Shown here piece after piece: positions 18,700 through 21,222 of a stretch of 27,460 nucleotides of DNA (the first letter of the stretch is position 1; each line of letters opens with the position of its first letter). The stretch is taken from positions 1-27,460 of the forward strand of contig LT642260.1 of NCBI GenBank assembly GCA_900128585.1, written 5' to 3'. Both the position numbers and the translations under genes were made by a program. The DNA is from Stramenopiles sp. TOSAG23-3. Its lineage: Eukaryota > Sar. The notes beneath the pieces are model-generated. The model saw nothing but the letters and a program-made list of their open reading frames with translations, had not been told where the DNA came from and ran no database searches.

Positions 18700-21222
18700 A
18701 TGGGTGCCACGGGTCGTTCGTTGTGGTCGTTCGCGACTTGTTTGGCAGTTTGGCTGCTTTCGAGTAGCAGTGTCTGCGGATCGGCTGTTCCACTGCCGAC
18801 GCACACGAACAGGGACGATCGCCGGGCGTCCAAATTTTTCCATTCTGTAGAGAAGAAGACCGAGGGGCCGGATGATCAAGTTATTAGGAAGGATGAGTTG
18901 AAGGACTTGTTGGAGAATAGCCTAGGAAGTGAGCACTTCGACGACGCTTCAGAAGTTGCTGACGGGGTCGACGAAGCTTTTAGTAAAATTGACGTCGGTG
19001 GCGACGGGAGTATTAGCTTGTCAGAAATGACCTCGTTTTGGTCTCGGTTAGACTCACTGCAGTCCGTCAACGACGTGGCAGACTGGGTGCGATACGCCGT
19101 ACAACTCCCGCAGTACGAAGAAACCTTTCGAAAGAATGCTATTACGGGGTATGACCTGCCGACGCTCTTGGAAGGGAAAGGGAGGCTTTTGAAGGACGAG
19201 CTGGGGATTCAAAATAACTTGCACAGGAGAATCATCACTCGTAGCATAAACACCAGGCTGTTGGGGATAGGTAAACTGCCGTCGCGTCGTCACAGACTTA
19301 TTTGCACTGTACTTCCAAATTGTGAAGGTATAGAGCTAAACTGGGACATGTATTGGTCGGATGAAAGTGTGCCCACGGGTCAGACGGAGTTCATTCCGAT
19401 TCATCTATACCGCGTCAAACGCCGCAGGGTGCACCCTGGGGCACCAAAGCGGTCATCCTGGTCGGACGACGCAATCGTTCACAGTTTTCCATTTTTGCAC
19501 AGCGCTTTTTCTGACAAAGACAAAGACGCATTTTTTTCATACAAAGTCCAAGCGTGGAACCTCTTTGGGCCCAGCAACTGGTCCGACGAGGCCCTGTGCG
19601 ACCCACTCCCAGCGTCCTGCGAAGCGCTGTTTGTCGACGCCACGGTTTTGGCTAGCCGAGAGAATGGTAATTCCTTGGGGGGCCGGACACGCAGACCTTT
19701 TCCTTTGCAGTTGATGAAGATACCTCAAGAAGCCAATCGACGAACCACAAAGTTTTTCAAAACGTTTGAAGCAGGAACCGACGGTGAAAACAACATGCTA
19801 ATCGATAACAAAGAAATGGAGGAATGGATTCGGGAGAATATCAAAAATTCTGACAGGTTCGACGAAGATGCTGAGATCGAGAGCGCCGTGAAGCGGGCTA
19901 TCTCCAATCTCGATGCAGGCGGAGACGGATTTATATCTCCCTCTGAAATGACTCACTTCTGGGGAAGTTTGAAAGATCTGCGAACCGTAGACCATGTTGT
20001 GGCTTGGTTTCGACACGCCTTACAACTTCCACACTATGAGAAAATGTTACGCGAGAAATCTATAACTGGGTACATGCTGACGAGACTGTTTGTCTCTCCG
20101 CAGACGATGAAAGAAAAAATAGGCATCGAGGATGAACTTCACTTGAAAACACTCACCGATATACTAAAAATTAGGCTCATAGGACTTCGGGATATCCCAG
20201 AACCAGTGACATCGTTGCAGTGTGCAACCAATTGCAATCGATACAAGTTTGCATGGCTGGATCCTCAGAGCAGCACAAACGCAGCGACGGCGTTTCAGCC
20301 GCACAAATACCAAGTGCAAAGCCGGTACGATTCTGTTCAAGGGTGGAACGACAACATTGTAGGGGTGGATACGACAGAATTTATTGTTCCAACCCAGGAT
20401 GATGAAAGTTCTAGTGGGCAAATGCAGTTTCGGGTTCGTGCTTGGAGCAGCCTAGGAGCTTCTAGCTGGAGCAAAATTTCCTCGTGCGATTTCCCTCCTG
20501 AATCGTGCACCAAAGCGCGAAAGTCCTCGTGGGCAAACTTACAGGACGAAAAAGACGAACTGTTGTGGCGGCTAGTGGGGGCAATAATGCCCGGTATTGG
20601 AGATTGGCACCCAGTAGCCCGCTATTCGTTTTATTTTGGTGTTGTTTTCTCAGCGTGGTATCTTATGCTTTACTCGTTGCGAGCTTTCGTTATGTATTAC
20701 AAGAGCAAGCATCTTGATGATGATGTCGACGACGTACAGGATGATTACTTTTTGGGAACAAAAGATGTCGGAATCCGCACCAGAAGAACGTCTTCGTCTG
20801 CTGTAGAGGAGCCCGAGGATCACATCGGTCGCGAAGGCGGTGATGAAAGCGCTACGAGTGAAAGTGTAAAGAAGCAAAAGCAATGCTTCTACGCAAGCTG
20901 TGCGACTCGCGGTAAAAAGAAAACCCAATGGAAGCGATTTTCGCAAAAATTGGGGCTACGGCCCAGGGTTATCCACAATTGCACCAGGTGCTTTGAGGTG
21001 AGTTTCTGTAAGGACCATGGGTATGTTAGCCATAAACGGGGTACCTGCTCATTGGAGTATGGCAGGAACACTTGCCTATGCAACAGTTGCATTGATTTTC
21101 TAATACAAAACGAAGGGGAGACTTGTATTCATAAACACGTAAGAAATTTGACACGAGAACGGGATAGAAAAATTGCAGAAGATGCCTGGTATAGCAGAGG
21201 TGAAGGAGTCGATGCCGATTGA
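18700..21222 (+). CDS. STIM-like membrane protein with duplicated EF-hand/SAM/FN3-like modules
   Basis: This 840-residue protein starts at ATG 18700, with a signal peptide (about 1-28, ending near VCGSA). Two tandem modules follow. Each has an EF-hand loop (D98-x-G-G-D-G...E109; D405-x-G-G-D-G...E416), a SAM domain (about 122-190; 429-497) and an FN3-like domain (about 198-307; 504-603) that ends in a C-D-x-P-x-x-S-C pattern. The first SAM carries LPQYEETFRK, identical as recalled to the STIM1 SAM, and the second has LPHYEKMLREK. One TM helix (about 637-667) follows, then a cytosolic acidic stretch and a Cys/His-rich region (729-812; C761-x2-C764-x5-C770). STIM proteins sense ER-luminal Ca2+ through EF-SAM and open Orai channels by a cytosolic coiled coil; that coiled coil is absent here. 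EF loop position 3 is Gly in both copies, which may weaken binding. A Ca2+-sensing role is inferred. Confidence 0.87.
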   Translation: MGATGRSLWSFATCLAVWLLSSSSVCGSAVPLPTHTNRDDRRASKFFHSVEKKTEGPDDQVIRKDELKDLLENSLGSEHFDDASEVADGVDEAFSKIDVGGDGSISLSEMTSFWSRLDSLQSVNDVADWVRYAVQLPQYEETFRKNAITGYDLPTLLEGKGRLLKDELGIQNNLHRRIITRSINTRLLGIGKLPSRRHRLICTVLPNCEGIELNWDMYWSDESVPTGQTEFIPIHLYRVKRRRVHPGAPKRSSWSDDAIVHSFPFLHSAFSDKDKDAFFSYKVQAWNLFGPSNWSDEALCDPLPASCEALFVDATVLASRENGNSLGGRTRRPFPLQLMKIPQEANRRTTKFFKTFEAGTDGENNMLIDNKEMEEWIRENIKNSDRFDEDAEIESAVKRAISNLDAGGDGFISPSEMTHFWGSLKDLRTVDHVVAWFRHALQLPHYEKMLREKSITGYMLTRLFVSPQTMKEKIGIEDELHLKTLTDILKIRLIGLRDIPEPVTSLQCATNCNRYKFAWLDPQSSTNAATAFQPHKYQVQSRYDSVQGWNDNIVGVDTTEFIVPTQDDESSSGQMQFRVRAWSSLGASSWSKISSCDFPPESCTKARKSSWANLQDEKDELLWRLVGAIMPGIGDWHPVARYSFYFGVVFSAWYLMLYSLRAFVMYYKSKHLDDDVDDVQDDYFLGTKDVGIRTRRTSSSAVEEPEDHIGREGGDESATSESVKKQKQCFYASCATRGKKKTQWKRFSQKLGLRPRVIHNCTRCFEVSFCKDHGYVSHKRGTCSLEYGRNTCLCNSCIDFLIQNEGETCIHKHVRNLTRERDRKIAEDAWYSRGEGVDAD

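Follow-up and report, generated by a model that had tools for sequence, protein, structure and literature searches.

Does a stramenopile encode a membrane calcium sensor built on the EF-SAM module of STIM, outside the lineages from which STIM is known in print? The question is raised by an open reading frame (ORF) on the forward strand of contig LT642260.1 from Stramenopiles sp. TOSAG23-3 (assembly GCA_900128585.1), all 27,460 nucleotides of which were analyzed and are referred to here as the window. A preliminary description, made from the sequence alone, had read the ORF as a duplicated STIM-like luminal sensor with two EF-SAM units, each followed by an FN3-like domain, and one membrane helix. 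In the excerpts available from the papers cited here, the origin of STIM is placed near the base of metazoans, with ORAI being older (PMC7016017), STIM is reported from Monosiga (PMC3194816), and Orai-bearing groups outside animals and choanoflagellates are described as having no STIM1, another protein probably performing the same task (PMC11085791, section 2.12). Nine oomycete genomes contained no STIM or Orai homologs, save for one SAM-only match (PMC4820453), and PMC9694693 agrees on the missing oomycete homologs. The family described below lies outside this published animal and choanoflagellate range of STIM, and no description of an EF-SAM membrane protein in stramenopiles was found in the literature searched, as far as the excerpts extend.

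Tandem EF-SAM units in a family of five proteins

The ORF (18700-21222, +) is intact and intronless, comprises 840 amino acids (aa) plus a stop codon, and is open from its ATG. Four relatives of 834–850 aa (P0002–P0005) were found by protein search; they show 34–45% identity in the alignment with the window protein (P0001), and these five proteins, aligned over their full length, constitute the family. All five have the same layout, i.e., the N-terminus, EF-SAM unit 1, a beta-type domain, EF-SAM unit 2, a second beta-type domain, a hydrophobic segment and a tail of ~ 170 aa. A Pfam search of the window protein returned SAM_2 twice (2.3e-19) and EF-hand models at two places (EF-hand_1, 5.4e-8), confirming the tandem arrangement proposed earlier, and the doubling in each member gives ten repeat units in total. 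Repeats 1 and 2 of one protein share 38–51% identity, and between the proteins mean identity is 69% for repeat 1 and 59% for repeat 2. Since the repeats are less alike within proteins than between them, the EF-SAM unit was doubled before the five members diverged. Three relatives (P0002, P0003 and P0005) carry the precomputed Pfam label PF23564.2, which was not recovered at E ≤ 10 when the relatives were searched with Pfam.

Relation of the EF-SAM units to STIM

When the single window protein was compared with the PDB, STIM1 (2k60, 3.9e-6) and STIM2 were the top matches. A profile of the ten units placed STIM1 first (2.7e-12), STIM2 second (1.3e-10) and Caenorhabditis elegans STIM sixth (2.6e-8). 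With a SAM-only profile, the same three proteins led the 49 PDB matches (STIM1, 1.4e-10; STIM2, 1e-9; C. elegans STIM, 4.5e-6), with Liprin-beta-1 (4.9e-6) close behind the last of them. Profiles of the individual repeats gave a similar order: for the repeat 1 SAM, STIM1 (5.3e-9) and STIM2 (1.5e-7) were followed by ANKS1B (9.4e-6), with C. elegans STIM fourth, and for the repeat 2 SAM, which had 19 matches, STIM1 (4.1e-9), STIM2 (3.2e-7) and C. elegans STIM (4.8e-4) preceded the first non-STIM protein (7.5e-4). Because STIM1 and STIM2 rank first for the SAM of each repeat, the placement of both SAMs in a non-STIM family is not borne out.

A family profile, run against a protein collection with scoring limited to the 7988 candidates having most words in common, retrieved 19 proteins at E ≤ 0.1; 14 of them carry the name STIM1 and are all from vertebrates, and the other five are the family itself. 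Reciprocally, a whole-genome search with bird STIM1 (E ≤ 10) gave two matches, both in this ORF and one per repeat (7.7e-8 and 1.2e-4). Profile-profile alignment with the 14 vertebrate STIM1 pieces, a nearly uniform set, gave a probability of 97.9 and an E value of 3.5e-13 over 127 columns, spanning both EF-hands and the SAM domain. The decapeptide LPQYEETFRK of the first SAM matches STIM1 at every position when aligned with 2k60, as the preliminary description had stated; it is partly SAM consensus and occurs in two of the ten units, window repeat 1 and P0002 repeat 2. The transition from EF helix to SAM, likewise described as running straight on as in STIM, differs from STIM1 by one single-residue gap. 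SAM positions aligned with STIM1 L195 and L199, which in STIM1 reach into the EF cleft, hold Ile or Leu in all ten units at the former, and Leu in nine units and Phe in one at the latter. Similarity to STIM amounts to ~ 30% and is confined to the EF-SAM stretch. Homology between this EF-SAM module and the one in STIM is very probable.

The units also depart from STIM. The preliminary description had given each unit one EF-hand; an EF-hand is present in each, but every unit holds a pair, consisting of a degenerate EF1 (loops resembling EGPDDQVIRKDE) and a near-canonical EF2 (loops resembling DVGGDGSISLSE), so that each protein has four EF motifs. In the alignments, EF1 falls on the canonical EF of STIM and EF2 on its hidden EF; the better Ca2+ loop therefore lies in the other EF of the pair than in STIM. 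PF16533, which we take to be the SOAR/CAD domain, is precomputed for the 14 STIM1 matches and was not listed at E ≤ 10 by a Pfam search of the window protein and its four relatives. A crude heptad score ranged from 0.25 to 0.62 in the family, compared with 0.75 for STIM1. Because EF order, unit number and SOAR all differ from those of STIM, the window protein does not count as a STIM; it is not a STIM ortholog. What stands of the STIM-like reading is that a protist membrane protein carries STIM-type EF-SAM units in tandem, presumably on its luminal side, with EF usage and the SOAR/CAD region being different.

Flanking domains, tail and genomic setting

Kyte-Doolittle hydropathy indicates an N-terminal hydrophobic segment in four of the five members (not in P0004) and a membrane segment near residues 644–668 in all five. 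Each EF-SAM unit is followed by a Cys-containing beta-type domain, as had been described; the FN3 assignment holds at the level of a motif, and no FN3 match was obtained in these domains from Pfam. A beta-domain profile, made from nine of the ten sequences with domain 1 of P0003 left out, had four PDB matches with E values of 0.58–1.5, which include a named FN3 domain (1x4x). FN3 was therefore dropped as a firm label. Eight luminal Cys residues of the window protein are invariant in all five members, as would be expected for disulphides outside the cytosol.

After the membrane helix, four of the five members have an RRxS motif. In the tail, C729, C734, C770, H773, C794 and C797 are invariant throughout the family and form a zinc-finger-like set that was absent from the preliminary description. 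No known family fits this tail: the cluster has no Pfam match at E ≤ 10, and comparison with the PDB gave weak matches only, to ribosomal protein S29/uS14 (best E 0.076). A search of the genome with this tail, as present in the window protein, recovered the tail itself and nothing else. The Cys/His cluster is possibly a new zinc-binding domain. The positions of all features are given in Table 1.

Table 1. Features of the EF-SAM gene and its predicted product, with positions in the window
Feature	Positions	Strand	Evidence
Whole ORF, membrane protein with two EF-SAM units	18700..21222	+	open over 840 aa, aligned with four relatives
N-terminal hydrophobic segment, likely signal peptide (residues 1-30)	18700..18789	+	hydropathy peak at residues 14-32
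EF-SAM unit 1 (residues 42-190)	18823..19269	+	Pfam, PDB search, STIM alignments
Unit 1 EF1 loop, degenerate, EGPDDQVIRKDE	18862..18897	+	profile-profile alignment
Unit 1 EF2 loop, near-canonical, Gly at position 3, DVGGDGSISLSE; aligns with STIM hidden EF	18991..19026	+	
SAM domain 1 (residues 121-188)	19060..19263	+	Pfam, SAM-only PDB profiles
Cys-containing beta-type domain 1 (residues 194-310), FN3-like by motif only	19279..19629	+	
EF-SAM unit 2 (residues 347-496)	19738..20187	+	Pfam, reciprocal STIM1 search
Unit 2 EF1 loop, degenerate, DGENNMLIDNKE	19780..19815	+	
Unit 2 EF2 loop, near-canonical, Gly at position 3, DAGGDGFISPSE	19912..19947	+	
SAM domain 2 (residues 428-494)	19981..20181	+	Pfam, SAM-only PDB profiles
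Cys-containing beta-type domain 2 (residues 499-606), FN3-like by motif only	20194..20517	+	
Predicted membrane helix (residues 644-668)	20629..20703	+	hydropathy, five of five members
Zinc-finger-like tail cluster (C729, C734, C770, H773, C794, C797 invariant)	20884..21090	+	family alignment

The genome searched comprises 12.9 Mb in 660 contigs, and its completeness is not established. Orai (PF07856) had no match in it at E ≤ 10; the controls gave a single sub-cut-off match (Haloferax), so this search had no positive control. The IP3R models PF08709 and PF01365 had no matches in the genome and none in the controls, hence they are uninformative. SAM_2 had eight matches in six ORFs; the five ORFs other than the one described here were read by eye (C270 and C596 in part) and rejected as paralogs, as no EF-SAM pattern was seen. 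One of them, C270:1-1953, is a 1259-aa ORF with two SAM domains on either side of a charged, coiled-coil-like stretch and with the apparent start of a kinase domain; it is a different double-SAM protein. One Ca2+-ATPase-type ORF is present, and Ion_trans had 71 matches, with several ORFs (e.g., C453, C485 and C266) having four each, which points to a large repertoire of voltage-gated-type channels.

A light-harvesting gene was not found in the genome. Placement of the source relied on a neighboring IFT80 gene, for which a tree of 42 rows was made; besides the window, it comprises 41 proteins taken from the 120 that were listed (of 984); some labels, e.g., Platysulcus, were read from sequence prefixes. 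The window falls in a 23-row set (100/100) together with all ten stramenopile-labeled rows and 12 rows without label. This set contains no row labeled other than stramenopile, and the rows closest to the window are environmental. Given this placement and the missing light-harvesting gene, the source is therefore likely, as far as one gene can indicate, a marine heterotrophic stramenopile of the marine stramenopile (MAST) type. Between 2961 and 25202, the neighbors are an M16 peptidase with an N-terminal extension, a Cep120-like protein, a kinesin with ankyrin repeats, a PhyH protein, a U2A'-like leucine-rich repeat protein and IFT80; the names follow from Pfam matches, except for U2A', which is our own reading. 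The neighboring genes that were examined are open and intronless.

Interpretation and comparison with known systems

We consider it somewhat probable that the protein is a luminal membrane Ca2+ sensor of a heterotrophic stramenopile, in which the STIM-type EF-SAM switch is used twice and is joined to an output other than that of STIM. In this proposal, we infer Ca2+ binding, location in the endoplasmic reticulum (ER), switching, output and the detailed topology. Downstream of the signal peptide, the two EF-SAM units, each with its Cys-containing beta domain, would lie in the lumen of the ER or of another Ca2+-rich compartment, where Ca2+ bound to EF2 would make each EF pair clamp its SAM. A drop in luminal Ca2+ would loosen the clamp and allow the SAMs to associate, which would bring together the membrane helices and the short, putatively zinc-binding tails. 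The tail would then signal by a route other than that of the STIM coiled coil onto Orai.

Several observations weigh against this sensor. Gly occupies position 3 of the EF2 loop in all ten units, and the strict EF-hand pattern, which we take to be PROSITE PS00018, matches none of them, EF2 being matched in all ten once position 3 is freed. Because the position 3 ligand is missing and the strict pattern finds no unit, Ca2+ affinity, as predicted from the loops, may be low or nil; a low affinity of EF2 may suit a Ca2+-rich compartment. The profile of the EF pair alone leads to generic calmodulin-type EF-hands, and STIM is not among the best 60 of its 158 PDB matches. The signal peptide and membrane helix of the preliminary description are predicted by hydropathy, the former in four members and the latter in all five; in P0003 and P0004, however, the membrane region shows two neighboring peaks, which makes a single pass less certain for these two members. 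Evidence for ER retention was not found, with none at the C-terminus of the window protein. The full-length AlphaFold2 model (five sequences), with a predicted local distance difference test (pLDDT) score of 37.5, is unusable. The model of EF-SAM unit 1 (ten rows) has a mean pLDDT of 60.4, and because of this middling confidence EF-on-SAM packing could not be shown; two helix-loop-strand-helix motifs and five SAM helices are predicted in it. Foldseek ranked the C. elegans STIM EF-SAM structure (6pw7) first for this model, with a template modeling (TM) score of 0.52 over 161 columns, and among the 50 rows listed no further match exceeded 0.42 by query length. This rank speaks for the STIM likeness; the E value of the match was 0.012, and none reached 0.001. 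VIA-align listed 50 rows of EF-hand proteins, nearly all on residues 1–82, with no STIM among them.

The main rival, which we regard as rather unlikely, is a plasma-membrane receptor or adhesion protein of the same topology, whose EF-hands would be structural and permanently loaded by seawater Ca2+, whose SAMs and beta domains would bind partners, and whose tail would signal. The conserved Cys and the FN3-like motif of the beta domains would suit a surface receptor, as would EF2 loops without a ligand at position 3 and a C-terminus of the window protein in which no retention signal is seen. However, both SAMs specifically resemble those of STIM, a luminal Ca2+ sensor, the EF-SAM spacing is conserved, and the N-glycosylation sequons of the luminal part do not keep their positions across the family. 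Convergence, by which a generic SAM became joined to a generic EF-hand pair in an event separate from STIM and the likeness goes back to SAM consensus residues such as LPQYEE, appears improbable. It is consistent with the missing preference of the EF part alone for STIM and with the recurrence of the near-consensus LPQYEETFRK in P0002 repeat 2; yet SAM-only profiles favor STIM over all other SAMs in the PDB, even for repeat 2, where one of five members has the decapeptide, and span and spacing agree through EF1, EF2 and SAM. Transfer from an animal or choanoflagellate into the stramenopile lineage, followed by duplication, would accord with STIM being reported in print, in the excerpts used, only from these two groups (PMC7016017, PMC11085791, PMC3194816), but is quite improbable given the different EF order and tail, the low similarity restricted to the EF-SAM stretch, a duplication that predates the divergence of the members, and a G+C content at third codon positions (GC3) of 0.526, within the 0.482–0.697 of the neighboring genes.

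A broader proposal can be made tentatively: the STIM-type EF-SAM switch may predate the opisthokonts, and the family may be a second sensor of store Ca2+ that was elaborated independently in stramenopiles, its EF usage being inverted and its output a zinc finger. If true, the sensor module existed before it joined the Orai-gating coiled coil, and the family could show the STIM module prior to its tie to Orai. A doubled EF-SAM in an uncultured stramenopile, a protist distant from animals, suggests a greater age or a wider distribution of this kind of Ca2+ sensor than has been assumed, and provides a concrete, testable candidate for luminal Ca2+ sensing outside the range of STIM.

Compared with known systems, other SAM proteins (Liprin, ANKS1B, SARM1/TIR-1, Shank and aveugle) share the SAM fold and are weaker matches of the SAM-only profile, scoring under STIM1 and STIM2 in every SAM-only search. 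Calmodulin-type and S100-type proteins resemble the EF pair, and the single-sequence PDB search also matched S100A1 over residues 47–111; unlike in these proteins, the pair here belongs to a secreted or membrane protein, where it is joined to a SAM, and the usual position 3 ligand is missing. STIM1 and STIM2 share with the family an EF-hand pair leading into a SAM at near-equal spacing, presumed in the family to be luminal and to lie upstream of a membrane helix, and both SAMs of the window protein match STIM best in the PDB. In contrast to the family, with two EF-SAM units in each of its five members, STIM1 and STIM2 have one. The family further differs by a beta-type domain after each SAM, which lies between SAM and helix, and by a tail of ~ 170 aa that has a Cys/His cluster and no SOAR/CAD match at E ≤ 10. 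Finally, STIM1 and STIM2 have a canonical loop in EF1 and a hidden EF2, whereas all ten units of the family have a degenerate EF1 and a near-canonical EF2, a swap that provides a natural contrast for studying what the hidden EF of STIM does.
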